Below are positions 13,162 through 59,001 of a DNA stretch of 64,000 nt, piece by piece; position 1 is the stretch's first letter; each line of letters starts with the position of its first letter. The position numbers and the translations under genes were made by a program. Location: positions 1-64,000 of IMG/VR virus record IMGVR_UViG_3300010334_006851. One strand, 5' to 3'. This stretch comes from a virus. A model generated the notes under the pieces. That model was given only the letters and a program-made list of their open reading frames with translations, was not told the DNA's origin and did not search any database.

Positions 13162-13593
13162 ATGATGAATTTTAAGCTTTTTATAGAGGCAGAAGAAAAA
13201 GAAAACGTAGACCAGCTTATTTCTGCACTTCCCAAGAAGCATCAAGAAATACTCAACAAGTTTAAGTTTACCTATACCCCTAAAAACACTCTAAAAGGGG
13301 ACGAGGATCATATTGGCTATGTGCACAAGAAGAAAATAGTGGTAGCAGCACCGTGGAATTATTCAAGAAAGTTCACAACGCTACACGAAATAGCACACAT
13401 GGTATGGGAACACCTAATAGACAAAAGCAAGAAAAAAGAATGGTCAAAGATAGTTAAGGGAACAAAAAATAGGCAAAAACAAAATGACGAAGAGCTATTT
13501 TGTATGGCCTATGCTTGCTTCTATTCTGGGGATCATTGCCCTAGGATCCACGATCACGAAGAATGGAACAAATTCGTCTCTTCGCTTAAATAA
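13162..13593 (+). CDS. HEIAH metallopeptidase with capsid-targeting-like N-terminus
   Basis: The 143-residue protein starts MMNFKLFIEAEEKE, resembling the T4 capsid-targeting sequence MKTYQEFIAE with an I-E-A-E site for prohead protease. The rest is a small zincin: HEIAH at residues 75-79, with a later Glu/Asp-rich helix (DEELFCMAYA) that could supply the third ligand. It stands alone on the forward strand and converges on the next gene with 40 bases of overlap. I infer an injected internal-head protease. The target is unknown. Confidence 0.7.
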   Translation: MMNFKLFIEAEEKENVDQLISALPKKHQEILNKFKFTYTPKNTLKGDEDHIGYVHKKKIVVAAPWNYSRKFTTLHEIAHMVWEHLIDKSKKKEWSKIVKGTKNRQKQNDEELFCMAYACFYSGDHCPRIHDHEEWNKFVSSLK

Positions 13594-13901
13594 CCCTTTA
13601 CATCACCATTTTGCTCTATCTTTTTGTCTTCATATGGTGAAGCGACTCTACGGTAAAACTCTTGCTTAACGTTCTCAAGAACGCCTGTAATAATGGCTAC
13701 CTTAGCATACGTTGGTTTGTTTACGAGCAAAGAAGAACAAATTCTGGTCATGACGTAATTTAAATTACCAGAACAGTTCAGTAAATCATTTGCATCAAAT
13801 TCTGATATGTCCTTTTCCGAAACAGCATTGAACAAAGAGTCCACTAGTTTCTCTATGTGTATATCAAGTCTTTTTCTGAAGCTGTTTTCAATGTAGGGCA
13901 T
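13554..13901 (-). CDS. Conserved phage protein of unknown function
   Basis: The 115-residue protein begins MPYIENSFRKRLD and contains CSGNLNYVMTRI and VKQEFYRRVASPYEDKKIEQNGDV. I recognise this as a widespread uncharacterised family in phages and bacteria (MPYI...GDLNYV...EFYRR...YEDxKI..NGDV), probably DUF6899. No biochemical role is known. Confidence 0.7.
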   Translation of the reverse strand: MPYIENSFRKRLDIHIEKLVDSLFNAVSEKDISEFDANDLLNCSGNLNYVMTRICSSLLVNKPTYAKVAIITGVLENVKQEFYRRVASPYEDKKIEQNGDVKGYLSEETNLFHSS

Positions 13902-13902
13902 A

Positions 13903-14568
13903 TCAATCTTTCTTTTTGTAAAAGAAGGCTACTACAGAACGACGAAGAGCATCACCGGCAGAAGCATCAACTCTGTTGATGGCGTGCCAAACTTTTCCTT
14001 TTGTAAAAACAAGTCTGTTTGGAAGAGGAGAAATATATTGGCCAAGGCCATATTCATTTAATAGCTCTGGCATATATGATCGATCAATAGCATCGGATGG
14101 CTGAGAGGTGAGTCTGGCGTCCGACTCCGGAGAAGTCTTTGCAATAAAAAGTTCACCGCCCCAGTGGGGATCCCAAAAACTATGGGTGTAGAATATGGCA
14201 GCAGCTGAGTATCCATAGTCATTATGCCATGATATCTTTGTGTTAACAGGATATATGTATGGCGTTAAGAGAAAATCATCCCAATCTTCTCCCTTTTTTC
14301 CCACTATGGTTTCTAAGTGCTGTGTGGCCAATGTGTTTATAACTTCTATCATTCCGTCCATCATACAGTTATGAGGACCTTTAGAAGCATAGTACGGTGA
14401 GCCTGCTAAAACCTGGCCGTCTGAGATTCTCCAGACCTTCTGCCAGCCTGTGAGGGAGCGATACGCAAAGTCTAAGGTGTTAAAGTAGTGACAGAATTGC
14501 TTAAAATAAGCATCATCTAGCACCGAATCTAGAACGGCGTAGTTGTTGTCTTTGACAAGTAGTTTCAT
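13903..14568 (-). CDS. 2-oxoglutarate/Fe(II) oxygenase (prolyl-4-hydroxylase-like)
   Basis: The 221-residue protein has the iron-binding H-x-D in ISWHNDYGYS, a W-G-G-E-L strand, a distal His in GKVWHAINRV, and an Arg (RRSVV) expected to bind 2-oxoglutarate. These enzymes hydroxylate peptides, sugars or nucleobases. It abuts a GT2 glycosyltransferase (1 base apart), so hydroxylation followed by glycosylation is possible, but unproven. Confidence 0.8.
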   Translation of the reverse strand: MKLLVKDNNYAVLDSVLDDAYFKQFCHYFNTLDFAYRSLTGWQKVWRISDGQVLAGSPYYASKGPHNCMMDGMIEVINTLATQHLETIVGKKGEDWDDFLLTPYIYPVNTKISWHNDYGYSAAAIFYTHSFWDPHWGGELFIAKTSPESDARLTSQPSDAIDRSYMPELLNEYGLGQYISPLPNRLVFTKGKVWHAINRVDASAGDALRRSVVAFFYKKKD

Positions 14569-15306: not shown

Positions 15307-15356
15307 GATTGGTTCTCCTTGGTATCAAATAATTGTAACAAAAAAATAAAAGTTGA

Positions 15357-16493: not shown

Positions 16494-16838
16494 ATGCAAT
16501 TTAACAAATTCCTAGAGATATCAGAGAATATACAAGAAGTTAAGTCTCTATGCATAGAGGAAAACTTCCTTTGGGCAAAAAAGATACACCTGCCTAGCTT
16601 GGATCTAGGTCTGCCTAGTGTCGAAAAAAAGTCTAAAATATCCATATTAAATGATAAAATAAACCCAATTTATATGCAACTAGAAGATGGGTCAAAGCTA
16701 TTCTTCACATACGATGAATTTAAAAGAATACAAGGAACGCCTTTGATTGGTAAAGTTATGCAACTAACAATGCAAAGGCTTGGAAATGATACCTCTGTGT
16801 ATCCTTCAAAAATAACAGCATGTAGAATTATAAACTAG
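16494..16838 (+). CDS. Unknown protein with capsid-targeting-like N-terminus
   Basis: The 114-residue protein starts MQFNKFLEISENIQEV, matching the F-x-x-F-(I/L)-x-x-x-E signature seen in several genes here, with I-S-E as a possible prohead-protease site at residues 9-11. The rest contains L-E-D-G-S-K-L-F-F-T-Y and a basic C-terminal half. Single forward gene between two leftward ones. Candidate internal-head protein; cargo function unknown. Confidence 0.6.
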   Translation: MQFNKFLEISENIQEVKSLCIEENFLWAKKIHLPSLDLGLPSVEKKSKISILNDKINPIYMQLEDGSKLFFTYDEFKRIQGTPLIGKVMQLTMQRLGNDTSVYPSKITACRIIN

Positions 16839-38190: not shown

Positions 38191-38193
38191 ACT

Positions 38194-38322: not shown

Positions 38323-38353
38323 CTTTTCCTAAACAACTGTCTAAACATTTAAC

Positions 38354-38390
38354 AAAAAAAGGGAGGACCACTTTTTAGTAGTCCTCCCTT
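38354..38390 (-). terminator. Rho-independent terminator of the tmRNA
   Basis: On the leftward strand AGGGAGGAC and GTCCTCCCT pair, with further inner pairing, followed by TTTTTTT. It sits 3 bases beyond the tmRNA 3' end. Confidence 0.88.
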
Positions 38391-38393
38391 TAG

Positions 38394-38742: not shown

Positions 38743-38794
38743 ATTAATAGCATTATAGCACACAAATTAGGGCTCGTAAAATTGAATTTAGCAC

Positions 38795-38802
38795 CATATA
38801 TA
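38795..38802 (+). promoter_or_regulatory. Candidate late-type promoter element CATATATA
   Basis: CATATATA 22 bases before the ATG at 38825, in the same position relative to a capsid-tag operon as CATAAATA at 16461 and CATATATA at 57375. SD AAAGGAG follows. Confidence 0.35.
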
Positions 38803-38824
38803 TCACAAAAGGAGAAAAATCCCC

Positions 38825-40252: not shown

Positions 40253-40748
40253 CTATAATTTTTCTTTTAACGAGTGGGTTAAATCTAGAATTCTTCAGGA
40301 AAATTACCAACCAGAGCACACTGGTATACTGAAGGTCAAACCAAATCCAACCCAAATAGTAGAAATACAAAATAAAGTTCTAGAAAAGTTTCCTGACTTG
40401 AAGCCTTTGCCACAAGACAAGCTACATGTAACCATGTTACACCAACAGCTTGCAAAGCCTTTAAAAGGAGCTGTTCTGCCTCCTTTGCAGACAGAAATAA
40501 CTTTTAATCCAAGCCAAATTTATTCAGTAGAAAGAGATGGCAAAAAGTCAGTTTTTGCTGTGGTAGTCGAACAAGAAGCACTTAAAAGATACATGGAAGA
40601 ACTTGCACAGCAGACAAACATTCAAATAGAACCAAATAGAGTCTATCACGTAACCGTGGCCAATTTGACTGGCAATGTAGCCGATAGTGTTGGACACAGT
40701 GAAGACAATCCAATAATGAACGGTGCACAACAAATAAGCTTAGAATAA
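40245..40748 (+). CDS. 2H phosphoesterase with capsid-targeting-like tag
   Basis: The 167 residues carry a tag around FSFNEWVKSRILQE (residues 6-19). The remainder is a 2H phosphoesterase/LigT-like fold with HVT at 61-63 and HVT at 135-137, the two catalytic H-x-T motifs. The family cleaves 2',3'-cyclic phosphates or cyclic oligonucleotides; the phage anti-CBASS enzyme Acb1 belongs to it. Packaging plus this fold suggests an injected counter-defence enzyme, an inference. Overlaps the acidic protein gene by 8 bases. Confidence 0.72.
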   Translation: MHSYNFSFNEWVKSRILQENYQPEHTGILKVKPNPTQIVEIQNKVLEKFPDLKPLPQDKLHVTMLHQQLAKPLKGAVLPPLQTEITFNPSQIYSVERDGKKSVFAVVVEQEALKRYMEELAQQTNIQIEPNRVYHVTVANLTGNVADSVGHSEDNPIMNGAQQISLE

Positions 40749-40758
40749 CAGATAAAAC

Positions 40759-42525
40759 ATGAAATTAAATGAAAGCCCAGATAACTTTTATATAAATAAT
40801 GAACGTGTAGGGTATACGAGAGAAGACGCAGTATCTTTCATAGCCTTCACAGAAGGATACGTGGTCTATTCAACAGCTGGTGTTGAAGGAGCACGGGCCA
40901 ACAGTTCTAACAGTGGACACGTAGCATTAGCAGAAGCATGGGCCCTTAAGCTTAGACAAGAAAACAATATATCACTTGATGAAGATCAAGAAGATGCTTG
41001 GGAGTTTTACAAAGATCACCTAAAAACAATAGGACAAATGGGTCCTGCGGCAAAGTCTTTAGCAAAAGATTTCCTGTCTGGTGATAAATCTCCTTGGTCT
41101 TATGACGCATCAGAATTAATGTTAAAAGGAAGATTGTGGCGAGGCACAGGAATTACTGCACACAATGCTCCGGAAATGCCAGAAGAGGGCGAAGAAGTCT
41201 ACGAGGAACCACTAACAGATAAGGTAGTTTCTTTCTGGGGACTTTATTCACCCGAACAGCTCAAACCATCATTGGGGCTAATCACAAAATTAATTAAAGC
41301 TTTAGGAGAAGATCCAGAAGAGTTTTATTTTCAACTTGGAAATTCCTTTTATCCATATTCCTCAGTTTCAGCAGGAGTCGAGTCAAAAACTGACTTTGAT
41401 AAAGAGTACAAAGTCGGAAGCTCAATGTACACATATTCAGACTTTGAGAAACTTAGAACGGCAATGCATAGTGCCGGGGCGACCCTAGAAGGAAAACGAG
41501 CAAAAGAAACGTTGTGCAGAATTTTCACCCAAGAATTTGTAGAGGAAAACCCAGAGCTAAGAGGGTTTTTACCATCCAGTGATTGTATAGATATAACATA
41601 CCAAGGAGCGAAAAAAGACGGGTTATATTCTGTCAAACCAGAGATTGAGAGAGGACTCGCACCAACACGAGAACTACTTCGCCGCAAATATGGTGGTGCA
41701 GCAGCTAAAGGACAGATCAAAGGATTCATGCAAGGACGTGGTACAGAACCTGTTCTACCTACAACTTCTGAGCCGGGGCAGACAGCAGGAATGCGTGGTC
41801 GAACCCTTGGCGGATTTCGTGGAAGAACTCAAAAAGAGATAGATGCCGCATGGGACGATTTCATGAGAAAGAGAGAACAAACAAGTCCAGAACAAATAAG
41901 CTTTAAAGAATGGCTCTCTTTTCTAGAATCTTTTTTTTTTGAAGGATTAGAGCTACTAAAAGAAGATCCAAACGAAGTCTCAAGAAACCCTATTACGGGA
42001 AGGCCTAAACTCAAAGCTATAGATTCGTTTGCTGTTACGTTCATATTGTTCAAAGACTACTCAGTTTATGCACCAACTGTGAAAGGTGCATTTCATGATG
42101 ATTTATGTCATTGGTTAGCTTTTAAAGTAATAGCAAACTCATATCCTGGTGGTGAAGAACATCTCACAAACTTTGAAAAAGCGAATCCTTGGACAGGTGC
42201 TGCTAGAGAAGTAGGAAGAATGGGGCCAGGAACAATTAAAACAATAAGAAAAGTAACAGATGAACTTGAATGGACAGACGGTAGAAGTTCATTACTTCGT
42301 GTTAATCCCGAAGTTATTCTAGGTCGCTTATGGTTGGACCACAGAGTTGTTAGTTTCTGGAACTATTGGCCTTATGTTACAAAAGCATCAGAAAGAATAT
42401 TGCAATTTGTATCTATGTTCGATGATCCTAGCAAATTTGAGTACGACATCAGAAATATGCCAGCAACATACGAAGACATAGAAAAAAAGAAACCAGTACC
42501 TTCCTCTAGAAGCGTAGAAGCCTAG
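40759..42525 (+). CDS. Large unknown protein of the capsid-tag cassette
   Basis: 588 residues, no recognised family. The N-terminal third contains FTEGYVVYSTAGVEGARANSS; the middle is Gly/Arg-rich. At about residues 380-391 it has an internal ISFKEWLSFLES matching the tag otherwise seen at N-termini, directly followed by a run of ten T bases encoding Phe-Phe-Phe. The protein may be two units joined, or have an internal start near 41862. Last gene of a three-gene forward operon, converging on the next gene at CTAG. Confidence 0.6.
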   Translation: MKLNESPDNFYINNERVGYTREDAVSFIAFTEGYVVYSTAGVEGARANSSNSGHVALAEAWALKLRQENNISLDEDQEDAWEFYKDHLKTIGQMGPAAKSLAKDFLSGDKSPWSYDASELMLKGRLWRGTGITAHNAPEMPEEGEEVYEEPLTDKVVSFWGLYSPEQLKPSLGLITKLIKALGEDPEEFYFQLGNSFYPYSSVSAGVESKTDFDKEYKVGSSMYTYSDFEKLRTAMHSAGATLEGKRAKETLCRIFTQEFVEENPELRGFLPSSDCIDITYQGAKKDGLYSVKPEIERGLAPTRELLRRKYGGAAAKGQIKGFMQGRGTEPVLPTTSEPGQTAGMRGRTLGGFRGRTQKEIDAAWDDFMRKREQTSPEQISFKEWLSFLESFFFEGLELLKEDPNEVSRNPITGRPKLKAIDSFAVTFILFKDYSVYAPTVKGAFHDDLCHWLAFKVIANSYPGGEEHLTNFEKANPWTGAAREVGRMGPGTIKTIRKVTDELEWTDGRSSLLRVNPEVILGRLWLDHRVVSFWNYWPYVTKASERILQFVSMFDDPSKFEYDIRNMPATYEDIEKKKPVPSSRSVEA

Positions 42526-43746: not shown

Positions 43747-45153
43747 TTATTGATCGTTAAAAACCTCTTTTGGGGGAAATGGGTCCAAGTTCTTAAACTC
43801 TAAGCAAATAGACCTACCGCCTCTAGCCTCACTCATAAATCTACTAAACAGTAGACCTTCTTTCACAGGGTCAACCGTAGTTATGCCCAAGCAGTAACAA
43901 GTTAAAGCACCCGCTGCAGAGCCTCTAGCAGGCCCTACAGCCTGACTTCCATCTCCCCAGCCCAAAAGACTCCTACAAACTCTTCTGGCTTCGTCGGTCA
44001 TTTTCTTTTGTATAAGGAAGTAGCTAGAAAAACCCTTTCTAGTTATTAAGGAGTATTCTTCTTTAATCCTGCCTAGGTATTCTTTGGTTCTAGGAAGGTT
44101 CTTTTCAGCAAAACCCTTCATTATCTCTTCTTTTAGTATATCATCAGCATCAGGAAGCACAGGCAACTTAAGGCTACGGTCTAATTGAACACCTTTTGCT
44201 TTGTTGCATATGGTAACGGTGTTCTTTTTTGCTTGTTGAAAGAGTTCGTATGGAATCGTGTCGGAATATTCTTCTTGCCACTTTTTATTTAGCTCTTCTT
44301 CGCTCTTCATCCAAAGGTTAGCATCCTGAAGCTCGAAGAAATCTTGCATATTGTCTTCAGCCATAGCTCGCTGAATGTCTTGAACGGTCCTATTTGTTTG
44401 AACCATCAACATAAGCCTCTGGAACTTGCTGTCTTCTTGATTGCAGTAATGACAGTCGTTGGTTAAAATCAAAGGAAGCTTATACTTTTCATGGGCCTTA
44501 ATTATAAAAGCGTCATAGGGTTTTTGTTTCTTAAAGTCTAAGAGCATTATCTCTAAGAAATAATGACTCCTACCAAACATTTCAATATAACGCTCTATAA
44601 CAGCATTAGCGGCGTCTTCACCGTGTCTGTCAAAAGCCCTGCCTACTTCACTGTTATAACAACAGCTAGTAAAGAACAGACCTTCTTTGTGCTTTAAAAG
44701 CTGATCGTAATTGACTCTAGGCTTTCTATAAAAGCCTTTAGTCCATCCCCAGCTGGTTAAGCGAACAAGGTTTTTATAACCAACGTCGCTGTAAGCTATT
44801 GCTAAAAGGTGAGCACTAGCCTTGATGTCCTTTTTTTCTTCTTCGTTTAAATCTGCAGTGAACTTCTGCATATCCTCCAAACAGCTAGACTCTGGCTGGA
44901 GCGGGTTCACATAGAGTTCTGCTGCGAATATATAGGAAAGGGTGTCTTTTCCCTTTTTTTCATTTATTTTTTCGCAAGCACGAATTTGTCTAGGGACCGC
45001 TCCCAGCATACCGTGATCACTCACGGTAAGAAATTTCTGATTTATTTGAGTTGCTCTTTGGGCAAATTCCTCTACCATGCCGAAGCCATCGAGTAATGAA
45101 AAATCCGTATGGAGATGCAAATGTTCAAAGCCAACAATTTCGCAGTTTTTCAT
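43747..45153 (-). CDS. dnaE: DNA polymerase III alpha subunit, N-terminal (PHP) part
   Basis: 468 residues. The PHP domain opens with HLHLHTDFSLLDG and continues through LTNDCHYC and the thumb-side region (LPRTKEYLGRIKEEY). The palm entry VGPARGSAAG (about residues 406-415) and LTCYCLGITTVDP are intact. The protein ends just past the place of the first catalytic motif, where PDIDxDF is replaced by RSICLEF. It thus has no polymerase aspartates and must work with the distant C-terminal part, which has the opposite pattern of loss. SD GGGAGA. Confidence 0.92.
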   Translation of the reverse strand: MKNCEIVGFEHLHLHTDFSLLDGFGMVEEFAQRATQINQKFLTVSDHGMLGAVPRQIRACEKINEKKGKDTLSYIFAAELYVNPLQPESSCLEDMQKFTADLNEEEKKDIKASAHLLAIAYSDVGYKNLVRLTSWGWTKGFYRKPRVNYDQLLKHKEGLFFTSCCYNSEVGRAFDRHGEDAANAVIERYIEMFGRSHYFLEIMLLDFKKQKPYDAFIIKAHEKYKLPLILTNDCHYCNQEDSKFQRLMLMVQTNRTVQDIQRAMAEDNMQDFFELQDANLWMKSEEELNKKWQEEYSDTIPYELFQQAKKNTVTICNKAKGVQLDRSLKLPVLPDADDILKEEIMKGFAEKNLPRTKEYLGRIKEEYSLITRKGFSSYFLIQKKMTDEARRVCRSLLGWGDGSQAVGPARGSAAGALTCYCLGITTVDPVKEGLLFSRFMSEARGGRSICLEFKNLDPFPPKEVFNDQ

Positions 45154-45355: not shown

Positions 45356-45513
45356 AAAAGAAAGAGCCCTTGACAAGAGGCGAGAGCAATCTTATCAAGG
45401 GCTTCGGAATTTCCGAACACTGGATCTTATGCTTCTTGTGCAGTTTGTGTAAAAACGCGTAACTTGTAAAAAGCTAAAGTAGTATTCTTTAAAGACTAAT
45501 ACTAATTGTCTAA
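45356..45513 (-). ncRNA. Structured RNA repeat, copy 2, abutting the tnpB stop codon
   Basis: This copy begins on the leftward strand exactly at the tnpB stop codon. It has hairpin AGTATT/AATACT, hairpin TTCGGA/TCCGAA (a compensatory change against copy 1) and the same long terminal stem. Position directly 3' of tnpB on the same strand is where TnpB omegaRNA is made. On the other strand a TTGACA-17-TATCAA promoter-like pair falls in the stem, a competing reading. Confidence 0.62.
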
Positions 45514-46958
45514 TTTCTATGCTTAAGTATATTAGCATTATAAGCTAAATACTTAAAGTAAGTTTCATATAGACCGTCGAACCAAATACTCTTCCCTATA
45601 TTTTCTATATTTTTTGCAGCGTTCTCGTCCCTATAGATATGGGCATTGCACTTTTGACAATCAAACTCTCTTACCCCAAGGGGAATTTTTCCAGCAACGT
45701 AATTACAAATGCTGCACAGCTGCGTTGTGTATGGAGTAGGGACCAAAACAAATGGAATTCTTTCTTTTTCACACAATCTTACCAGCAAAAGTATAATTTT
45801 GTCTTGCCCAAATGAACCGTTCTTTTTTCCACTTTTTAAATTATCAATACAGATGCAAAGCTTATTCTTTTTGCAGTAGTCAGCAATTTCTCTTACTAAA
45901 GGAAAATATAGCTTTTCAAGTCGTTTATGGATTGACTTTACTTGCCCTCTAACTTTAAACCCAATCTTATTTAATTGTCTTAGCTGCTCTTCCAATGATT
46001 GAATTTCACTATCTAGTTCAGACTTCATTATAACTTTGGTTAGAACCCCTAGATATGAAATCTCTCTAGAAAAGGTCAAAAAAGAATTACCACTCTTATT
46101 AATATCGAAGCCTAAAAAGTCCTCAGGACTATAGAGCCATTTATTAGTGAACCTAGCCATGACATGAAAAATGACTTTGTTTTTTAGTATTTGAAGATTT
46201 CCACCATTTTCAAAGCTCACAAAATTCAAAATTTTATTCTCTTCTTGAGCACTTAGCTTATACCCTCTCCTGTAAACACTAAACTTAGAACTAAACGATT
46301 CTTTAAACCCAAAAGGAAATATAGAAATGCGTTTGTTTTTTTTATCCAAAGAAACCTGAGAAGCGTGCAAGCGAATACATTTATCAGAAGGGTACGGAAA
46401 CCTAATATTCTTTATGTCTTTCCTCTTACATCCCTTGAATCTTTTAATTATGGCCTGAGAAGCTTCGTAAACAGGTTTAAGGAAACCACGCTTAGGTGCT
46501 GTCATCTCTTCGGGGGTCTTAGTTTTGCCATTTTGCATGGTTTGACAAGGAAAGTTTAAATCAGAAAAAAAACTAGTGAATCCAAGACCGCCTTCAGAGA
46601 CGGGTCTACATATTTTTTCGGGAAAACTCTTATCGTAAACTAATATCTTTGTTAAAGGAATTTTTCCTTTTTCAACTAAGTTATACAAAGATCGACAAAT
46701 CTTTTTTTGATATTTTATTATAACATTAAAGACCCTACAGTTGATGGACTCTATGCTGGCTTCCAGCAATAACTTTACATCCCGTAATACTTCAAATTGA
46801 GTTTTTCTATTTTTATTGTATTCGCTTTGCTTTGGCGAAGGCATCCAGCCTTTCTTCTTTTTATCAAATTTATACAAAAGATCCTCGTCCACTACATAAT
46901 ATCTACATTCGCTGTCTGTCAAACCAGACTTATCTTGAGTTCTTAAAATTTTATTCAT
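45510..46958 (-). CDS. tnpB: TnpB-like RNA-guided nuclease
   Basis: 482 residues. The C-terminal RuvC-like core shows Asp in FLGFDINKSGNS, then CICIDNLKSG (Asp where most TnpB have Glu), a zinc finger CSICN...CQKCN and final Asp in YRDENAAKNI. Slightly longer than common TnpB (about 400). No tnpA transposase and no clear left end: the ATG overlaps the preceding gene by 4 bases. This suggests a resident or domesticated copy. TnpB cleaves DNA guided by an RNA read from the element's 3' end. Confidence 0.85.
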   Translation of the reverse strand: MNKILRTQDKSGLTDSECRYYVVDEDLLYKFDKKKKGWMPSPKQSEYNKNRKTQFEVLRDVKLLLEASIESINCRVFNVIIKYQKKICRSLYNLVEKGKIPLTKILVYDKSFPEKICRPVSEGGLGFTSFFSDLNFPCQTMQNGKTKTPEEMTAPKRGFLKPVYEASQAIIKRFKGCKRKDIKNIRFPYPSDKCIRLHASQVSLDKKNKRISIFPFGFKESFSSKFSVYRRGYKLSAQEENKILNFVSFENGGNLQILKNKVIFHVMARFTNKWLYSPEDFLGFDINKSGNSFLTFSREISYLGVLTKVIMKSELDSEIQSLEEQLRQLNKIGFKVRGQVKSIHKRLEKLYFPLVREIADYCKKNKLCICIDNLKSGKKNGSFGQDKIILLLVRLCEKERIPFVLVPTPYTTQLCSICNYVAGKIPLGVREFDCQKCNAHIYRDENAAKNIENIGKSIWFDGLYETYFKYLAYNANILKHRN

Positions 46959-50272: not shown

Positions 50273-50500
50273 TCAAGCTTCTTCTTGCTTTTGTTTAAAA
50301 GCTTCAAAGTCTTGCTCGGCCTGTTTTGCCTCATCTTCCAAAACTTTTAATTCATTTTGGATCTTCTCGTAAAATGTCTTGAGTTCAAGTTTCTTGGCCT
50401 TTTTAGACTCAAAAATCTTAGCTATTTTCTGTGAAAACTCGACAAACTCTTCGGTAAGAAGATATTCATTTTTTTCTGTTTTCTTTTCCATTTTAATCAA
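50273..50500 (-). CDS. Coiled-coil protein
   Basis: 75 residues, nearly all Lys/Glu/Gln/Ala with heptads (FYEKIQNELKVLEDEAKQAE). Starts within the SpoVR-like gene end (ATG at 50500, 4-base overlap), so cotranslated with the kinase-linked operon. Confidence 0.6.
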   Translation of the reverse strand: MIKMEKKTEKNEYLLTEEFVEFSQKIAKIFESKKAKKLELKTFYEKIQNELKVLEDEAKQAEQDFEAFKQKQEEA

Positions 50501-52095
50501 TCACCTTTTAGGTGCTCCTCCCTAGAAATTACTTCAACATCACGCTCTATGTCTGTTCCATAACAGCAATAGACCTTTTCATTCCCGTCAACATCTTTGG
50601 TTGATAAGAAAACGTCTTTTCCCCAAATAGCTCTTAGAGCAACCAAGACATCAGAAACATACGGCTCATAAAGAGTTCTACCATCATAGGTGTGCTCTAA
50701 CATCATGGCTCCCTTGCCACGATAATTTGGCTCAGTCAATCTAATTTCAGGCAAACCACCGTTTATGTGTCTTCTCATAAGAAGACGTTTTATTTCTTTG
50801 TAGTCTCTGCTTTCTAGTCTGAATTCTCCGTTAGGGTAATGGACCCAATGGAAGTATTCTTGTTTTCGGCAAAACTCCTCTGTAAAGAATTCATGTATCA
50901 AAGTAAGATCATCATAATACTTTCTTACTTCAAATATCTTTTCTTTACCAAGGTTTGTCTTTAAGTCCCAATTTTCTTTTTGGTGAAGATCCTTGCAGTC
51001 CTCCCACTCTGTGCCGAACCTGCCTTTGTCCCAACGTTCCCTAATATCTGAGAGAAGGTAGTATCCCAGCTTATATGGATTTGTAGAATACTTGCCACCT
51101 AGGACGCCCATCTTGTGATCGGAGTATTCTATAATTCCACAATCATGCCCTTTTTGGCCTAAGGAAACAAAGCCTTGCTCAGCCATAATAACGCTATCCG
51201 TCATGCTGGCCCAGCCTTCGTTCAAAACCTTGGTTTGCCTCTGAGGATAGAAGTATAAGGCCTCATCATACAACATAGAGATTATGTCCGCTTGCCAAGG
51301 CTTGAGAGGAGCATTGTCTCTAAGATATCCTAGAATATTCTTAGTAGGTTCCTTAAAGACACCCAGCTCATCAGCTATGTCTTCTTCTTGAACGCGTTCA
51401 TTCTCTCTATCTTTAAATTCCTTTGTATTAATAAAAGGATCCATGTACATGCGATCCTTTCCAACAGTCAACCTTCTAGGGTGACGATACTTTCTTTGAT
51501 CTGTGACTATCACATCTTTAGAGATTTTTTCTGCCCATGCTTCGGAACCATCTATTAAGGTCTCAAGCCTCATTACCCAGTCTAAGAATTCAATTACTCT
51601 TTCTTTGCCCCAGCGGGCAATATAGTTCCTAATTCTAGTGCCGTGATTTGCCATCTTGTTCAACATGTTGGTGTCGGTGGCACTAAAATGAATGTTATTC
51701 TTAAAAAAGTCATTATGACCAGTAGCATGTGCAATTACGGTCAAATGATCCAAAAGAGTGTTGCTACTAAGGCAATATATGTAGCAGGGATTAACATTTA
51801 TGACCATTTCATAAATTTTATGCATCCCAAACTCATAACCTCTCTGGAGCTCCTCGTACTCCATGCCAAAGGACCAGTGAGGAAACCGAACCGGAAAACC
51901 GTTATATGCAGCAATTTCGCTGATTTCATCATAAGTAAGCAGCTGAACTACTGTTGGATAAAAATCTAGTCCCCAATCCCTGCAAGCCTGAAGTATCTTG
52001 GGGGCTAACTCTTTGAGTTCTTTAGAAAGCTGTACTCCAGGTACAGTGCTGTCCCCTAACAAAATAGGAGAACCGTGCATGAATTTGTTTGACAT
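50497..52095 (-). CDS. spoVR: SpoVR/YcgB-family protein
   Basis: 532 residues, full length for the SpoVR family, with YPTVVQLLTYDEISEIAAYNG, RFPHWSFGMEYEEL, HVIAHATGHNDFF-type His cluster, and FTEEFCRKQEYFHW. Bacterial SpoVR (B. subtilis) affects the spore cortex; E. coli YcgB is co-regulated with the kinase YeaG and YeaH. Its biochemistry is unsettled. Here it is third in a PrkA-YeaH-SpoVR operon, the usual bacterial grouping. Confidence 0.9.
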   Translation of the reverse strand: MSNKFMHGSPILLGDSTVPGVQLSKELKELAPKILQACRDWGLDFYPTVVQLLTYDEISEIAAYNGFPVRFPHWSFGMEYEELQRGYEFGMHKIYEMVINVNPCYIYCLSSNTLLDHLTVIAHATGHNDFFKNNIHFSATDTNMLNKMANHGTRIRNYIARWGKERVIEFLDWVMRLETLIDGSEAWAEKISKDVIVTDQRKYRHPRRLTVGKDRMYMDPFINTKEFKDRENERVQEEDIADELGVFKEPTKNILGYLRDNAPLKPWQADIISMLYDEALYFYPQRQTKVLNEGWASMTDSVIMAEQGFVSLGQKGHDCGIIEYSDHKMGVLGGKYSTNPYKLGYYLLSDIRERWDKGRFGTEWEDCKDLHQKENWDLKTNLGKEKIFEVRKYYDDLTLIHEFFTEEFCRKQEYFHWVHYPNGEFRLESRDYKEIKRLLMRRHINGGLPEIRLTEPNYRGKGAMMLEHTYDGRTLYEPYVSDVLVALRAIWGKDVFLSTKDVDGNEKVYCCYGTDIERDVEVISREEHLKGD

Positions 52096-52096
52096 A

Positions 52097-53317
52097 TTAT
52101 TCTTCGCTTAAGCTTGCGGACTCCTCATCGGGGACTTCAACGTTTCCAAGAAGTTTCTTTATGGCGGTAATAATTTGCTTATTACGATCTTCTTCACTAA
52201 GCCCAGAGGACCAGTGAGTACCACCTTCGCCTATAGAAACGGTTCTTACATATTCCCTGTCCAAAGTGCCATTTCTTATGGCATCATCAACAAAGCTTTT
52301 TACACTATTGCCCTGCATAGTGGATAGTATTTGGGTAATGCCTGTGAAGTTGACAACATTTGGCGTAAACTCTTGTGCAAGGGTAGATACAAACAAAGAG
52401 TTGTCATCATCCCAATTCTCACCATCAGTAAAATAAAACACATAAATGTTCCATTTGTTCGGTGGATAGCGGTTTTCAAATTGCTTTGAAATAAACTTTA
52501 AAGCGCTGCTACAGGTGGTGCCACCACCAAAGCGATACTTATAAAACTTCTCTTCGTCTACTTCCATAGCAGCAGAATCATGCCAGACATAAAGCCTGTC
52601 TACTCTGGTATAGAATCTTCTAATCCATGTATCGATCCACCAACACATATCAGATACTATGTCGCACTTAGTTGCATCCATACTTCCAGAACCGTCTCTG
52701 GCAAACACTATCAGTGCGTTACTCGATGGAATTTTTATTTCGTTATATTGTCTGTATCTTTTGTCTTCGTTGATTGGTTTTAATATTCTTATAGGGTCTT
52801 TTAAGCCCGGAACATGAGAAAGGTTGTTCAAAGTCCCCTCTGCAGCCTGCCTCTTGAGGGTCTGCATAAGAGTTCGTCTGTTGTGCCTGAGTGACTCTGG
52901 TCCAACTAAGGATATATTGTTATACTTTACCTTTATCTCATCATACGTTTCATTGGGCTTCTGCTTTAAGTTGGGCAACTTAAGTTCGTCCTGCATGAAC
53001 TTAAGGACATCCTCTAAATCAAGGTTTATGGTTATACCTTCGGCATCCCCTTGCCCAGCACTATTTCCTTTTCCCGGCTTAGGGTCTTTGCCAATAACGT
53101 CTCCGTCTTTTCCAGCACCTCTTCCTACGCCCTCGCCGCTGTCTCCGAAGACAATGTGAGGTATATCTATTTTAGGAATAGTTATGGAGACTTTGCCATT
53201 CTTACCACGGTTACGTACTATTTGGCCGCTCTTAATGAATTTTTTAAGAGCCTTTCTAATACGTCCGGATACAACATCTCTAAAGTCTTTATGGTCTTCT
53301 TCTATACGACGAGGAAT
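52097..53317 (-). CDS. DUF444/YeaH-family VWA protein with ATT start
   Basis: 406 residues when started at ATT 53317. AAGGAGGT lies 5 bases upstream and an in-frame TAG sits 5 codons before it; no ATG, GTG or TTG is available until residue 108. The 107 residues before the first ATG are coding and match the family: PRRIEEDHKDFRDVVSGRIR, then VSITIPKIDIPHIVFGD and a Gly-rich linker, then NLDLEDVLKF joined to DELKLPNL. The VWA domain has MIDAS DGSGSM. In bacteria YeaH works with the kinase YeaG (PrkA). Confidence 0.85.
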   Translation of the reverse strand: MPRRIEEDHKDFRDVVSGRIRKALKKFIKSGQIVRNRGKNGKVSITIPKIDIPHIVFGDSGEGVGRGAGKDGDVIGKDPKPGKGNSAGQGDAEGITINLDLEDVLKFMQDELKLPNLKQKPNETYDEIKVKYNNISLVGPESLRHNRRTLMQTLKRQAAEGTLNNLSHVPGLKDPIRILKPINEDKRYRQYNEIKIPSSNALIVFARDGSGSMDATKCDIVSDMCWWIDTWIRRFYTRVDRLYVWHDSAAMEVDEEKFYKYRFGGGTTCSSALKFISKQFENRYPPNKWNIYVFYFTDGENWDDDNSLFVSTLAQEFTPNVVNFTGITQILSTMQGNSVKSFVDDAIRNGTLDREYVRTVSIGEGGTHWSSGLSEEDRNKQIITAIKKLLGNVEVPDEESASLSEE

Positions 53318-53332
53318 GGTACACCTCCTTAA

Positions 53333-53551
53333 CTAGGTGGGAAAGGTTAGCTCTATACGAAATGTTTCATCGTTTATTTCGCAAGAGAAATCAGCTAATT
53401 GCATTGATAAGAGAAAGCTTCTTTGTTCACGATTCAAACTCTTGAGTAGATCCTCAAGTGTTCCATCTGAACTCCAAACCTCCATCCCAACATCGTCAAT
53501 TGCCCTGAGGAGCTTTTTCTTTTTAACAGAACTTAGCCAATGATTGTTCAT
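53333..53551 (-). CDS. Small unknown protein between PrkA and YeaH
   Basis: 72 residues starting MNNHWLSSVKKKKLLRAID; helical N-terminal half, strand-rich acidic end. It is 1 base after PrkA and 15 before the ATT start, so it belongs to the operon. No family recognised. Confidence 0.6.
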   Translation of the reverse strand: MNNHWLSSVKKKKLLRAIDDVGMEVWSSDGTLEDLLKSLNREQRSFLLSMQLADFSCEINDETFRIELTFPT

Positions 53552-53552
53552 C

Positions 53553-55634
53553 TCAGTCCTCCGACTCGGCTAAGTCCCCCCTAGCAAATATACCGCCAAC
53601 AAAGTCCAAAACGTCTGTAGCAGAACGCTCGTTATAGCCATACTGCTTTATGAGTCTTGTTTTTATTGCGTCGATCTTTTCTTGGATGTCTTTGTCTACA
53701 ACTGTGGCACCGCTAACATTTAGTGCGGACAACTTGATGGTATCCTTTACATCCTCGAAAAGTTTGGCCTCAAGAGCCTTCTTAAGCTTAGGATTTGAAT
53801 CCCATCTAAACTGCTTGTTCTTATGAGCTAGATCACCGATAAAAGCAGCAATCTGGCGTCTAAAGTCTTCAGCACCAGTTTCTGGTATCTGAATCTTTTC
53901 TTCTATCTGCCTCATAAGCCTTTCATCCGGCTTGCGGTCTTGACCCGTGATCGGATCCTTGATCTTAGACTTATTAATATAAGCCATGACATTGTCGATA
54001 TAATTAGTACAAAGTCTAATAATTGCATCTTCGTCTCCGACCAGTGCCTTTTGCACCTCAGCTTTAAGTATTTCTGTTAGCTTCTTGAGAGCTAGATCTA
54101 CACAAGAAATATATCTACCTACTTGCTCCTTGTTTGTTAAAAGGGAGCAATTGTCTAGGCCCTCTTTCAACTCGTTAAGAACCATGAACATATTGACATA
54201 TTCATGATTGTTAGCCAAGCAATTAGATATTTTGTCCTGTAGGTATCTGACAGACACACCGCCAGACATACCCTCTTCAGGATACTTATCTCTCATTTCT
54301 TTTACAGAGTCTTCTGTCCAACCAGGCAGTAGTCTTCCATCATACAATTCTGCTTTTTCTACTAGTGTGATCTTTCCGTCTTTATCGTCATGAAGTCTAG
54401 TGAGAACAGAGAAGAGAGCAGCGATTTCCAAAGTGTGTGGAGCTATATGTTGTTTGACCTTTTCAGAACCATAATCTTTTTCAAGAATCTTTAGTTCTTC
54501 TGACCAACGTAAAGTATATGGAACGTCTATCTTTGTGGTTCTGTCCCTAAAAGCTTCCATATACTGATTGCTCTTTAGCTTTTGAAACTCTGGATCGTTC
54601 GTATGAGCGATAATAGCCTCATCGATTGATACCTGAGAGAACTTCTTTGGCTTAATTGATTGTTCTTGGCTTGCACCAAGAAGATCATATAAGAACGCTG
54701 TGTCGAGCTTCAAAACCTCGATAAATTCAATCAGGCCTCTATTCCCAGCACAAAATTCACCATCAAAAGAAAATGCTCTTGGATCAGAATCCGAACCAAA
54801 GTTACCAATCTGACGGAAGTTTATATCTCCAGTTAGCTCAGTCGAATCCTGATTCTTCTCGTCCTTTGGTTGGAAGGTTGCTATTCCGCAACGGTCTGAT
54901 TCGCTGTAAACCTTCCTTACAACTCTGATGTGATTTTCTAAAACTTTTTCTAAATCTCCATCATACTTCTTAAGTAGTGCATTCATGAACTTCTTGCACA
55001 ATGGGTCAAGCTCGTCATTGCACTTGAGAGTGTAAGTATCAGACCTTTTATCATCTGATAGGGACTCTTCATATATTTCATTAATTTTCTTTACAAATGG
55101 AAGTCTCACTTCCAGTGGTAATAGCTTGAGAGGCTGCTCGTGCATGGGGCATTCGCAGGTTGTATCATTATAAATACCATCTGCACCTGTGGGTAGATTT
55201 ACCCATTTAAAGGAATACCAAGCACCGTTATCGGTCTTAGAGAACCTTTCAAGACCTCTCTTTATTAGTCTGCATATTGTTGACTTAGAGCTTCCCACTG
55301 GGCCGTGAAGCAAAAGGATTCTTCGCTCTGTGCCGTACCCACCAGCGGCTCCCTTGATAAACTTTACTAGAGCATCCTTCATAGGAGTCAAGCCGACAAT
55401 TGGTAGATCACAGTCGTCAAAAAAGTTATAGTGAACATAGGTCTTTCTATATTCTTCGACAGTCTTGCTGCCCTTCTCCATTATCATTTCATAAATATTC
55501 TGCCATGAGTTTCTAAGCAGAGAAGGCTTTTGCTTGACCAAGTCCAAATATTCACTGAAACTCATTTCAGTGTTTAATGTTTGAAACTGTTCTTTGTTGA
55601 AACTGTTGATGATTTCTTTTAGCGTGTCAGTCAT
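53553..55634 (-). CDS. prkA: PrkA/YeaG-family serine protein kinase
   Basis: ATG at 55634 after GGAGG; 693 residues. The N-terminal AAA+ module has Walker A LLLHGPVGSSKST; the family signature FPVPxW-like and DGEF regions follow, and the C-terminal kinase-like domain includes QEKIDAIKTRLIKQYGYNE. Length fits PrkA (about 640 residues), also described as an AAA+ protease in Bacillus. It heads the operon, behind a TTGATC-16-TATAAT promoter. Phage purpose unknown; may push the host into a stress state. Confidence 0.9.
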   Translation of the reverse strand: MTDTLKEIINSFNKEQFQTLNTEMSFSEYLDLVKQKPSLLRNSWQNIYEMIMEKGSKTVEEYRKTYVHYNFFDDCDLPIVGLTPMKDALVKFIKGAAGGYGTERRILLLHGPVGSSKSTICRLIKRGLERFSKTDNGAWYSFKWVNLPTGADGIYNDTTCECPMHEQPLKLLPLEVRLPFVKKINEIYEESLSDDKRSDTYTLKCNDELDPLCKKFMNALLKKYDGDLEKVLENHIRVVRKVYSESDRCGIATFQPKDEKNQDSTELTGDINFRQIGNFGSDSDPRAFSFDGEFCAGNRGLIEFIEVLKLDTAFLYDLLGASQEQSIKPKKFSQVSIDEAIIAHTNDPEFQKLKSNQYMEAFRDRTTKIDVPYTLRWSEELKILEKDYGSEKVKQHIAPHTLEIAALFSVLTRLHDDKDGKITLVEKAELYDGRLLPGWTEDSVKEMRDKYPEEGMSGGVSVRYLQDKISNCLANNHEYVNMFMVLNELKEGLDNCSLLTNKEQVGRYISCVDLALKKLTEILKAEVQKALVGDEDAIIRLCTNYIDNVMAYINKSKIKDPITGQDRKPDERLMRQIEEKIQIPETGAEDFRRQIAAFIGDLAHKNKQFRWDSNPKLKKALEAKLFEDVKDTIKLSALNVSGATVVDKDIQEKIDAIKTRLIKQYGYNERSATDVLDFVGGIFARGDLAESED

Positions 55635-56936: not shown

Positions 56937-56948
56937 AAAATAATAGAG

Positions 56949-57071
56949 TTATTTTATTTTTCTTTTAGGAATAAAAGGCTTAGCAGGCTTTATAGATGTA
57001 GACATAAGCCTACCTGGCGTGTGTCCTCTCTTAATTCCGTACAGCCATTCTTTAAAGGCCAGAACGACCAT
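56949..57071 (-). CDS. 40-residue basic protein with capsid-targeting-like tag
   Basis: Starts MVVLAFKEWLYGIKRGHTPG and ends strongly basic (FIPKRKIK). The FKEWL core equals that of 57401 and 58756. Its ATG lies inside the end of the neighbouring tag protein gene (different frame, 20-base overlap). Could be a DNA-binding internal peptide. Confidence 0.5.
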   Translation of the reverse strand: MVVLAFKEWLYGIKRGHTPGRLMSTSIKPAKPFIPKRKIK

Positions 57072-57354
57072 TTTGGGCTGCCATTTGGGACTTCTTAAGA
57101 TCATCCTGCTTTCTCTTTAACGAAGAGGATATTTCTCCCTTGATAGAATCCATATCAGGCCTTAGGCCTTTTGGGGTCGCTCCTTTTAATTTGGGATCGT
57201 TCATTACAGATTTAGCTATTATATCTGGGTTTGGGTTGTTGCCAGAAGAGGCTAAAGCCTGTGCAACAGAAGCAGTTTTTTGGGAATCATATTTGGCGTA
57301 AAGGTCATTTTCGACCACGCCCTTTTTAGCCAGCCATTCTGTGAATGAAATCAT
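57052..57354 (-). CDS. Unknown protein with capsid-targeting-like N-terminus
   Basis: 100 residues starting MISFTEWLAKKGVVENDLYA (tag; V-V-E after residue 14). The rest is Ala/Ser/Lys-rich with low-complexity helices (SSLKRKQDDLKKSQ). GGAGG SD. Divergent from the ArdC-like gene, one of only two tag proteins on the reverse strand. Confidence 0.6.
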   Translation of the reverse strand: MISFTEWLAKKGVVENDLYAKYDSQKTASVAQALASSGNNPNPDIIAKSVMNDPKLKGATPKGLRPDMDSIKGEISSSLKRKQDDLKKSQMAAQNGRSGL

Positions 57355-57374
57355 TACAAACCTCCGTATGTAAA

Positions 57375-57382
57375 CATATATA
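57375..57382 (+). promoter_or_regulatory. Candidate late-type promoter element CATATATA
   Basis: CATATATA 18 bases before the ATG at 57401, with AAGGA between. Being nearly palindromic (TATATA) it could also serve the divergent tag gene at 57354. Confidence 0.35.
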
Positions 57383-57400
57383 GTACTAAGGATTCATATT

Positions 57401-58759
57401 ATGAGACTAAATTTTAAAGAATGGATGTTAACGGAGGAGACCGCGAGCACGCTCCTAACGCCAAACCCAACAAAACAAAACGATCCAAAATACGACTTTT
57501 TGGTTGTACTTAACGCAAAAGAAATATATCAGGTTCTTAAAAAATATGGATTTAGGTTTTACAAGCCAGATCTCAGCTGGAGCCTACCTAGGTTTGCATA
57601 TGAAAAGCTAGATGACAATGCAAAAAATGAGCTAAAAAGCGTAGGGGTAGAAATAGATCTGTTCAATATGGATAGACAAGCAGCCATTTCACAGGGACAA
57701 GCTAAAAAAGCACAGGCAGTTTCTGATAGAGAAAAACAAGCCCAGCAAGCACAAGCAGATGCAGAAAACAGAAAAACTTTAGACTATACAGGAAGTAAAG
57801 TTGATCAGTTAATAAAAGGAGAATTAGAAGCAGTAAAAGAACTAAGTAAAAAAGAGGATAACGAAAAAGTAGAGCAAATGCTTGATACAATAATTCATCA
57901 AGTAGCCAACATGGTAGATGAAGCCAAAAAAAGTAAAATAATAAAAGACTTTTTAGAAATGGCAAGCAGGCTTTATCAGTACTCTGCTAGAAATCAGTGG
58001 CTAATTTACGCACAAAACCCAGAAGCAACAGATGTACAAAGCAAAACAAAATGGCTAGAACTTGGCAGACAAGTAACTCCAGAAGGAGAAAAAAACGCCA
58101 TGATAATATTCAGGCCAGTAGGCGTAAGACAAAGAATAGTGAAATCAAAAGAAATAGACAAGGCAACTGGGGAAGAAAAAGAGATAAAGAAAAGAGTACA
58201 ATTTGGAATTCCGAAAAGTTACGCAGTTGAATACGTCTATGACATATCTGACACGATAGAAAAAGCTGGTGCCAAATCTGTTTATAAACCACACTCGTGG
58301 AGACAAGACAGCAACGAGCCTGTAGAAGAATTGGGAGGAATAATTGCTGGCGTTCTAAAGTACGCCGAAGACAATCAAATACCTGTAGAGTTTAAAGATC
58401 TTAACTACGGACTTGGAGGATATGCTACTAAGCACGGAGTAACAATAAACAGTAAGTTTGATGGAATCAATAAAGCGTCAACCCTAATTCACGAAATAGC
58501 ACACAAAATGATGCACTTCGTAGGAAAGAAAACAGATATAACAAGATCAGAAGCAGAACACGACGCAGAGACAGTCGCCTTCACAGTTCTGAAGTTCTTT
58601 GGCTTTGAAAGCAAAGACTCACCAGTCTACCTTTCATTGTGGGGAGGAACAAAAGAAAAGATCAAGTTACGCTCTAAGGGAATCAAAGAAACAGTGTCTT
58701 TGTTAATTAGGGCAATACAAGAGTACTATAAATCAGAAGGAATCCAACAGACCGTATGA
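57401..58759 (+). CDS. ArdC-like antirestriction/metallopeptidase protein with capsid tag
   Basis: 452 residues starting MRLNFKEWMLTEE (tag, L-T-E site). Residues 60-180 are a Gln/Ala/Lys linker and coiled coil. Residues about 190-250 match the ArdC N-terminal domain (YSARNQWLIYAQNPEATDV, WLELGRQVTPEGE, IIFRPV). The C-terminal zincin has HEIAH at 364-368 and EAEHDAE downstream. ArdC proteins bind ssDNA and block restriction of incoming plasmid DNA. With a packaging tag, this is a strong candidate for an injected antirestriction protein. Confidence 0.8.
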   Translation: MRLNFKEWMLTEETASTLLTPNPTKQNDPKYDFLVVLNAKEIYQVLKKYGFRFYKPDLSWSLPRFAYEKLDDNAKNELKSVGVEIDLFNMDRQAAISQGQAKKAQAVSDREKQAQQAQADAENRKTLDYTGSKVDQLIKGELEAVKELSKKEDNEKVEQMLDTIIHQVANMVDEAKKSKIIKDFLEMASRLYQYSARNQWLIYAQNPEATDVQSKTKWLELGRQVTPEGEKNAMIIFRPVGVRQRIVKSKEIDKATGEEKEIKKRVQFGIPKSYAVEYVYDISDTIEKAGAKSVYKPHSWRQDSNEPVEELGGIIAGVLKYAEDNQIPVEFKDLNYGLGGYATKHGVTINSKFDGINKASTLIHEIAHKMMHFVGKKTDITRSEAEHDAETVAFTVLKFFGFESKDSPVYLSLWGGTKEKIKLRSKGIKETVSLLIRAIQEYYKSEGIQQTV

Positions 58760-59001
58760 TAGACTTTAAAGAATGGAGAAAAAAAGAAGCAACGGTAGAA
58801 GTTGGACAGTATAAAATAATACTCCAAGACATAGGGAACGGAAGAATCTTATTGTCAGCAAGTTCGTCAGAGCAGATGATAGACAGTAAAAAAGAAGTAA
58901 AACAGGTAATAGATTTAACGGAGTTAAACAAACCAATAATGACAGGACTAGCTCTGTCCGCTCCGCTCATCGAGCCATACAACAGTAGAAACAACAACTA
59001 G
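58756..59001 (+). CDS. Small protein with capsid-targeting-like N-terminus
   Basis: 81 residues starting MIDFKEWRKKEATVE. The rest is a small beta-rich domain (YKIILQDIGNGRILLSASSS). Overlaps the ArdC-like gene by 4 bases (ATGA), so cotranslated and possibly copackaged. Converges on the HNH gene with stops sharing CTAG. Confidence 0.6.
   Translation: MIDFKEWRKKEATVEVGQYKIILQDIGNGRILLSASSSEQMIDSKKEVKQVIDLTELNKPIMTGLALSAPLIEPYNSRNNN

Follow-up and report, generated by a model that had tools for sequence, protein, structure and literature searches.

A T4-like capsid-targeting sequence probably marks a scattered set of genes in huge T4-type phages

The 64,000-nucleotide stretch of viral DNA considered here (the window) comprises bases 1 to 64000 of the 126,562-bp IMG/VR virus record IMGVR_UViG_3300010334_006851 (contig G000) and represents part of the genome of a huge T4-type phage. 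Scattered along it are genes whose otherwise unrelated products have a common N-terminal tag with aromatic residues at positions i and i+3; the second aromatic is usually preceded by an acidic or amide residue and followed by a hydrophobic one. We conclude that this shared start is probably a capsid-targeting sequence of the T4 type, employed more extensively than in T4 itself. Under this reading, the tagged genes would be transcribed late from T4-type late promoters, often near enough to the ATG to give a leaderless mRNA, and the tag would dock each protein on the prohead core. A gp21-type protease would then cleave at an (L/I/V)xE site behind the tag, releasing the cargo to enter the head together with the DNA. 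The cargo would be injected in the following round of infection and may act there ahead of phage gene expression in antirestriction, removal of cyclic-nucleotide and ADP-ribose signals, tRNA repair, and proteolysis. The sequences show that the tag exists and is enriched at N-termini, that it matches the T4 internal proteins (IPs), that relatives have the protease and capsid genes, that LxE and TAWATA motifs are enriched, and that some cargo belongs to known families; from them we infer docking, packaging, cleavage, injection, translation without a leader, and what each cargo protein does. A limited survey of the open-licence literature, which turned up work on targeting sequences in T4, P1, and SPN3US, showed no description of this tag as a feature of huge phages and none of late promoters next to the ATG of tagged genes.

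The window's virus is represented by two contigs. Contig G001 (122,854 bp) matches G000 with 99.99% identity along 69 kb and extends the same virus by 53.8 kb to the left; the union of the two (OWN, 180,408 bp; window coordinates equal OWN coordinates minus 53,846) was used for scans of this virus. A relative, the 36.5-kb contig G002, shows 75 to 84% identity in aligned pieces. The nearest large record found was that of an uncultured phage, LR756511.1 (595,163 bp; SpoVR 59.5% and gp46-like protein 43% identical). Two further large contigs, G012 (343 kb, 55.8% GC) and G020 (323 kb, 36% GC), were chosen from those contigs in which the codon pattern for MKTFx[EQ]W[LF]E occurs one or more times. 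Genes and their starts came from a simple custom caller, and some apparent tag gains or losses may be start errors.

A nine-column tag profile was trained on 65 N-termini from LR756511, using a seed pattern that required two aromatics, and was run over residues 2 to 22 of called proteins of at least 50 amino acids (aa) with a cutoff score of 8; the 21 residues following internal methionines of the same proteins served as the control. In OWN, the profile matched 19/218 proteins against 5/665 controls (21 tagged when shorter open reading frames [ORFs] are included). Similar excesses were found in G002 (8/44 versus 0/146), G012 (37/422 versus 11/1733), G020 (30/390 versus 6/1001), and the training phage LR756511 (70/1001 versus 11/2195). 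A preliminary description of the window had listed nine proteins with a common tag; all nine exist as ORFs at their positions, and eight score at least 8. Across the five sets, the first aromatic stands at residue 4 in 74/169 tags and at residue 3 in 32/169. The aromatic pair is imposed by the seed pattern; the N-terminal enrichment is not, and neither is the recovery of T4 internal proteins described below. A profile-free count of aromatic-x-polar-aromatic beginning at residues 3 to 8 also gave an excess at protein starts over controls in OWN (18/218 versus 19/665), LR756511 (82/1001 versus 74/2195), G012 (50/422 versus 51/1733), and G020 (37/390 versus 28/1001). When a viral-contig collection was searched with the MKTFx[EQ]W[LF]E codon pattern, 41 stretches began with ATG, compared with 4 when the first codon was CTN (leucine) and 2 when the aromatics were swapped; the 41 include several near-duplicates and a few ORFs that are doubtful or of 23 to 26 aa.

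The link to T4 comes from applying the LR756511-trained profile to the T4 genome, where it matched four proteins: ipII (65416), ipIII (65834), ipI (73591), and gp61.1 (18966). T4's annotated internal proteins are ipI, ipII, and ipIII, so that all three were recovered, and simple arithmetic puts the chance of finding all three among four matches at about 2e-6. Targeting of IPIII is described as depending particularly on residues 4 and 7, and its processing on residues 8 and 10 (PMC9026906). The IPIII start, MKTYQEFIAE, has Y and F at the first pair of positions and I and E at the second, and the two aromatics of the tag correspond to residues 4 and 7, in support of the T4-like capsid targeting originally proposed for the window. 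In an account of the T-even phages, many ip genes were recognized through their signal sequence, and the three T4 IPs are all reported to inhibit GmrSD-type restriction enzymes (PMC12373910). The fourth match, gp61.1 (NC_000866, 18966 to 19130, minus strand), begins MKTFKEFIKED and scores 13.2, the top of all T4 proteins; it is possibly a fourth tagged T4 protein.

The prohead protease and capsid genes that such a system calls for are present in the large relatives. LR756511 encodes a gp21-type Peptidase_S77 protein (526118 to 526534; E 6.7e-28) and a gp23-type capsid protein (523572 to 524777; E 5e-87), with a gene for an unassigned 310-aa protein between them, and homologues of gp17, gp20, gp21, and gp23 occur in both G012 and G020. 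LR756511 also has extra copies, namely, a second S77-like protease (242621 to 242989, minus strand) and two more gp23-like genes (195953 and 588014, both plus strand). The LR756511 and G020 capsid proteins contain TGLLEG at residues 21 to 26, a sequence absent from the G012 capsid protein as called. Three tagged LR756511 genes lie near the capsid gene, their ends 1 to 3.4 kb away from it: 516905 (1,076 aa), 520504, and 521964 (NADAR; E 2.3e-19). As called, 520504 has its tag at residue 20; initiation at a GTG preceded by GGAGG would yield MDFKEWYFINEG. More broadly, S77 was found in 13/25 tag-bearing contigs and in 9/12 of those of at least 100 kb, in a survey of 26 records (25 of the 41 tag loci plus 1 of the 4 CTN-control loci) that gives no base rate for untagged contigs.

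The tag was also said to be followed usually by a (L/I/V)-x-E site, and this is borne out. We counted (L/I/V/M)xE in the 18 residues starting just after the second aromatic and compared the counts with 500 shuffles. In OWN, 16/21 tagged proteins have the site, which untagged starts have in 24.8% of cases; the shuffles gave 7.7 ± 2.1, and 0/500 reached 16. In G020, 21/30 have it (shuffles 8.5 ± 2.4). The signal is weaker in LR756511, G002, and G012, as set out below.

The only source for the destination of the tagged proteins is the analogy with T4, and a short amphipathic start could bind other partners. The tag might accordingly sort proteins to another virion part (neck or tail), to the cell membrane, or to an infection compartment. 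We consider this very improbable. The same profile recovers the three internal proteins of T4, LxE sites follow the tag, and the profile-free aromatic-pair excess is present in phages with gp23/gp21-type heads, phiM12 excepted (p 0.11), and absent in phiKZ (10/326 versus 43/1369) and SPO1 (3/165 versus 17/542). By the profile itself, the comparator phages gave 7/274 versus 0/878 (P-SSM2), 6/349 versus 9/1038 (KVP40), and 2/282 versus 7/685 (phiM12).

Tagged genes also differ from untagged genes in what lies upstream of them. A box, defined as TAWATA or TAGATA beginning no more than 32 nucleotides (nt) upstream of the start codon, precedes 13/21 tagged versus 18/209 untagged genes in OWN, 40/72 versus 93/987 in LR756511, 21/37 versus 25/385 in G012, and 21/30 versus 46/360 in G020. 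Position at the head of a transcription unit was rejected as a sufficient cause, since odds ratios of 13.0, 7.8, 13.8, and 14.3 (OWN, LR756511, G012, and G020, respectively) persist against untagged genes that are first in their transcription units. AT richness is likewise unlikely to lie behind the excess, which is also seen in the GC-rich contig G012. The box start peaks 10 to 11 nt upstream of the ATG, with 27 boxes there among the 72 tagged LR756511 genes. The T4 late-promoter 8-mer spans -13 to -6, and setting the 8-mer at these positions places the predicted RNA start at or beside the ATG. The T4 late promoter is described as consisting of an 8-bp TATA box that includes -13 and lies roughly one helical turn upstream of the RNA start, without a -35 element (PMC2988020). 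This spacing predicts that tagged genes with an ATG-proximal box are expressed as leaderless late mRNAs. Homologues of the gp55-type late sigma factor are encoded in LR756511 (two genes, 464287 and 400576, both plus strand) and in G012. A scan for box plus start codon plus tag that bypassed the gene caller found 9 matches (8 loci) in OWN, 43 in LR756511, 22 in G012, and 19 in G020; with the box shifted by 50 nt it found 1, 3, 1, and 2, and with a reversed profile 0 in each. The scan found none in T4, KVP40, P-SSM2, phiKZ, SPO1, or phiM12; among tag matches, a box precedes 1/8 in P-SSM2 and 2/6 in KVP40.

A different explanation of these data could be that the conserved start is a nucleotide-level signal for initiation without a Shine-Dalgarno (SD) sequence or without a leader, and not a protein signal. 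Tagged genes with the box at 9 to 15 nt are indeed nearly devoid of an SD-like motif (4/74, compared with 36/86 other tagged genes and 722/1981 untagged genes), and first codons could affect initiation. We give this explanation extremely little credence. In 100 boxed tags, the second aromatic is encoded by TGG in 55, TTT in 17, TAT in 11, TTC in 9, and TAC in 8, so that the residue class is kept and not the codon. The same tag (W in 17, F in 13, and Y in 12) is borne by 42 tagged genes that do have an SD-like motif, and the T4 IPs bear it without such a box.

If the tag is a capsid-targeting sequence, the bodies behind it should be cargo, and a family scan indicates what some of that cargo may be. 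We scanned 60 hand-picked proteins, longer ones first, of which 57 were tagged by score or by eye and 3 were untagged neighbors. A Pfam family scored above cutoff in 19/57 tagged proteins. The families were ArdcN (57401), PolyA_pol/CCA-adding enzyme (OWN and LR756511), tRNA_lig_CPD, HAD_SAK_1, NADAR, Peptidase_C39 (LR756511 and G012), AstE_AspA, KOW4_SPT5, a phosphoribosyltransferase domain, DUF5661, Arr-ms, AAA_33, SNF2/helicase, DUF3293, Radical_SAM, and 2_5_RNA_ligase2/Acb1; a DnaG-like Toprim protein also scored above cutoff and was counted as a false positive. Searches of PHROGs found little for the tagged proteins. The recognizable cargo thus appears to be largely counter-defense or RNA repair, and antirestriction and anti-signal cargo fits the inhibition of GmrSD-type enzymes by the T4 IPs. 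The CCA-adding, cyclic phosphodiesterase, HAD_SAK, and kinase cargo may serve in tRNA repair.

Tag status seems to go with the protein body. Among 461 orthologue pairs from OWN, LR756511, G012, and G020 (reciprocal best matches between proteins of at least 60 aa with the first 22 residues removed; pairs not independent), 24 were tagged in both members, 413 in neither, and 24 in one only. The discordant pairs include near-threshold cases (e.g., 16494) and false matches (the RecA-like 76436). Others look like real gain or loss of the tag: an AAA_33 kinase tagged in G020 is untagged in LR756511 and G012, a HAD_SAK protein tagged in LR756511 is untagged in its G012 counterpart, and an Acb1-like protein tagged in G012 is untagged in LR756511. 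Contig G002 has two tagged proteins not present in OWN at those places, one Arr-ms-like (26.3 bits; cutoff 25) and one weakly DUF3990-like (below cutoff).

These comparisons bear on whether the tagged proteins, even if packaged, are mainly core or scaffold components that are degraded during head maturation and not injected effectors. T4 gp22, gp67, and gp68 are core proteins described as cleaved to fragments by gp21 (PMC5694885), and one window gene, 38825, encodes a long acidic low-complexity protein that keeps its tag in four phages. In addition, 38/57 scanned tagged proteins have no Pfam family above cutoff. The 19 that do have a family are mostly enzymes or counter-defense proteins, and some proteins are tagged in one phage and untagged in a sister phage, unlike a structural core. 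We regard a mainly structural role as quite unlikely.

Several observations weigh against the capsid-targeting reading. The match count in T4, 4/235, is at the control rate (10/731), none of the four T4 matches has an ATG-proximal box, and the non-T4-type phage SPO1 gives 3/165 versus 1/542 by the profile. The LxE signal is weak in LR756511 (36/70 versus 27% of untagged starts; shuffles 24.4 ± 3.6, with 1/500 reaching the count), in G012 (16/37; shuffles 10.1 ± 2.8), and in G002 (5/9, reached by 16/500 shuffles), and the profile favors a hydrophobic residue (L) and E in the LxE columns, which inflates all LxE counts by an unknown amount. Of the two head genes named in the preliminary description as the ones to find, the prohead protease and the major capsid protein, both are present in LR756511, G012, and G020, and neither was found in the incomplete sequence of the window's virus (S77 sought in G000 and G001, Gp23 in G000). 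Portal_T4 was likewise not found by Pfam search in G001 or G002. Control genomes were also mostly silent in the Gp23, Portal_T4, and Peptidase_S77 searches, and we therefore read these negatives as incompleteness, not absence. No homologue of gp22 (profile built from four T4-type phages), the scaffold core protein on which the tag would dock, or of the T4-type late transcription partners gp33 and gp45 was found in any of the huge phages. Finally, a few of the profile matches are ordinary replication proteins: three phages have a matching DnaG-like primase, and the window's phage has a matching RecA-like protein. An equal occurrence of the tag on plain cytoplasmic enzymes had been named as evidence against the idea; the pattern is not perfectly clean, but the tag is far from evenly spread over all enzymes.

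Known systems offer points of comparison. Like the tagged set, the T4 IPI, IPII, and IPIII targeting sequences are short N-terminal tags with aromatics at 4 and 7 followed by (L/I)xE, and they are carried by unrelated bodies, whose functions include antirestriction, in a phage that resembles the large relatives in its gp21/gp23-type head (PMC3012670, PMC9026906, PMC12373910). In contrast to T4 with its three IPs, the huge phages have 19 to 70 matches per phage or contig, many with enzymatic cargo, and many of their tagged genes have a TAWATA box abutting the ATG, unlike the T4 matches, none of which is boxed. The system thus appears to be an enlarged variant of the T4 internal-protein system with a gene architecture of its own. 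The Dar system of phage P1 is alike in its published description: DarB has an N-terminal signal, of which 30 residues are said to suffice, that brings a defense-related protein into the head for injection (PMC9024508). In SPN3US and phiKZ, propeptides are thought to target internal head and ejection proteins and are cut by a gp21-type protease (PMC5694885). These propeptides differ in being much longer, often more than 100 residues, and phiKZ has no tag excess by the profile (1/326 versus 15/1369). Packaged NAD+/ADP-ribose enzymes (Alt, NADAR, Macro, and Nudix) have been predicted in myovirus heads from gene context, as presented in PMC9503650. Like that set, the tagged proteins include a NADAR protein, encoded next to the capsid gene of LR756511, and an Arr-ms-like protein in G002; unlike that set, for which the argument is neighborhood and fusion, the argument in the huge phages is a common targeting tag. 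Another huge-phage record, W09 (LR756502, first 260 kb of 642 kb), was rejected as a carrier of the same tag, with 8/355 versus 10/1023 by the profile and no excess of box-plus-tag cassettes (3 versus 3 and 4). Many of its proteins begin with an aromatic pair in another sequence setting, for example MKYIKEYNDFLLE or MRNIKSYKDFANEE (loose pattern 40/355 versus 42/1023), and perhaps represent another tag family.

Within the window, the first tagged genes form a divergent pair. An HD-like protein of 293 aa, MSKLSFKFWLLDE (12228 to 13109, minus strand; score 9.3), was absent from the preliminary list; its G020 orthologue is tagged too (phmmer E 5.6e-31), and HD families match below the Pfam cutoff. 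A TAAATA box at 13115 to 13120 (minus strand) has its 5' end 11 nt upstream of the ATG at 13109, and another at 13152 to 13157 (plus strand) has its 5' end 10 nt upstream of the ATG at 13162. The latter precedes a putative zinc metallopeptidase with an HEIAH motif, MMNFKLFIEAEE (13162 to 13593, plus strand; score 9.5), whose LR756511 orthologue is tagged with M1, F4, F7, and E9 identical; ATLF and Peptidase_M78 match below cutoff. The gene at 16494 to 16838 (plus strand) is weakly tagged (MQFNKFLEISE; score 4.2; box 31 nt upstream of the ATG), and its LR756511 orthologue, found with the body alone, begins MDFREFYKLNEG and scores 9.7.

A forward island from 37171 to 42525 contains three further tagged genes. 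A TAAATA box at 38180 to 38185 (plus strand; 5' end 14 nt upstream of the ATG at 38194) precedes a 42-aa ORF, MKTFNQWLLENQ (38194 to 38322, plus strand; score 17.6). A TATATA box at 38797 to 38802 (plus strand), 28 nt upstream of the ATG at 38825 and followed by an SD-like AGGAG, precedes the long acidic His-rich protein MFKSFQEYIDQNKKLVE (38825 to 40252, plus strand; score 10.6), whose tag is retained in the G002, LR756511, and G012 orthologues. The next gene encodes a 2H-phosphoesterase-like protein, MHSYNFSFNEWVKSRILQE (40245 to 40748, plus strand; score 16.3), with two HVT motifs, both invariant with its tagged G002 orthologue; LigT_PEase matches at 19.6 bits, below the cutoff of 23.3, and an AlphaFold model from two sequences was unusable (mean predicted local distance difference test score 44). 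In the same run, a 588-aa protein (40759 to 42525, plus strand), missed in the preliminary description, contains the tag internally, as ISFKEWL at about residue 380 (score 10.8). It had no Pfam or PHROG match, and a fusion of two related halves would rest on a weak mutual match (E 0.012).

Toward the right end, a 40-aa ORF, MVVLAFKEWLYG (56949 to 57071, minus strand; score 11.0), has a tagged copy in G002, and a 100-aa protein, MISFTEWLAKKGVVE (57052 to 57354, minus strand; score 14.4), has a tagged G002 orthologue. A palindromic TATATA box at 57377 to 57382 lies between the divergent tagged genes 57052 (minus strand) and 57401 (plus strand), 28 and 24 nt from their ATGs. The latter encodes a 452-aa ArdC-type protein with an HEIAH motif, MRLNFKEWMLTEE (57401 to 58759, plus strand; score 15.5; ArdcN 23.9 bits, just above the cutoff of 22.6), and is followed by the gene for an 81-aa protein, MIDFKEWRKKE (58756 to 59001, plus strand; score 9.9); the G002 orthologues of both are tagged. 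When window cargo was searched with tblastn against annotated phages, one run produced 8 matches to distant peptidases and another produced none.

The tagged genes had been characterized as mostly isolated forward islands in a reverse-strand genome. Among the 83 genes wholly within the window, the tag is present on 7/11 forward genes (six pass by score, and 16494 is the seventh), and 4/72 reverse genes score at least 8; of these four, 33070 is probably a false positive. The forward bias thus stands, but 57052, 56949, and 12228 are reverse genes. Six believable tagged genes lie in G000 outside the window: 66711 and 83829 (plus strand) and 66244, 91654, 118816, and 125540 (minus strand), the last with its start moved to 125875. 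Five more lie in the overlapping contig G001, and the RecA-like match 76436 is probably false.

Other features of the window's virus were noted. A DnaE-type polymerase occurs as two ORFs, 33610 to 36843 and 43747 to 45153 (both minus strand), that match complementary parts of PF07733 (3 to 98 and 100 to 259) and are separated by the forward island described above. The larger ORF has a sub-threshold intein-splicing match, and a TnpB/Cas12f1-like protein (45510 to 46958, minus strand; Cas12f1-like_TNB, E 5e-13) adjoins the N-terminal polymerase ORF. SpoVR, DUF444, and PrkA (E 9.7e-104, 1.4e-41, and 5e-80), a stress-response trio unusual for a phage, are clustered at 50497 to 55634 (minus strand). 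Long ORFs with Thr/Pro repeats (TPTETPTE and SPTPSP) lie at 106602 to 109037 (minus strand) of G000 and at 67571 to 70639 (minus strand) of G001, the latter ending at window position 1438 (plus strand).

Huge phages carry hundreds of genes of unknown function, and a readable virion-import tag would mark those whose products reach the cell ready-made together with the phage DNA; such products are likely to act in the opening minutes of infection, chiefly to counter host defenses. Box, start codon, and tag together make a sequence-only screen, with the 43, 22, and 19 matches in three large genomes or contigs standing against 0 to 3 in controls, and the tag screen predicts that T4 gp61.1 is tagged. 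It is an evenly balanced question whether some 7 to 9% of genes in this huge T4-type lineage are portable cassettes, in which a head of about 50 bp (a late promoter with its predicted RNA start on the ATG, plus the tag) would make a landing gene virion cargo. On that reading, the cargo would form a broad injected first-response kit (antirestriction, action against the cyclic-oligonucleotide-based antiphage signaling system [CBASS], ADP-ribose handling, tRNA end repair, and proteases) and would turn over as ordinary enzymes acquire or lose the tag. If true, the leaderless cassette would explain how cargo is so readily exchanged.

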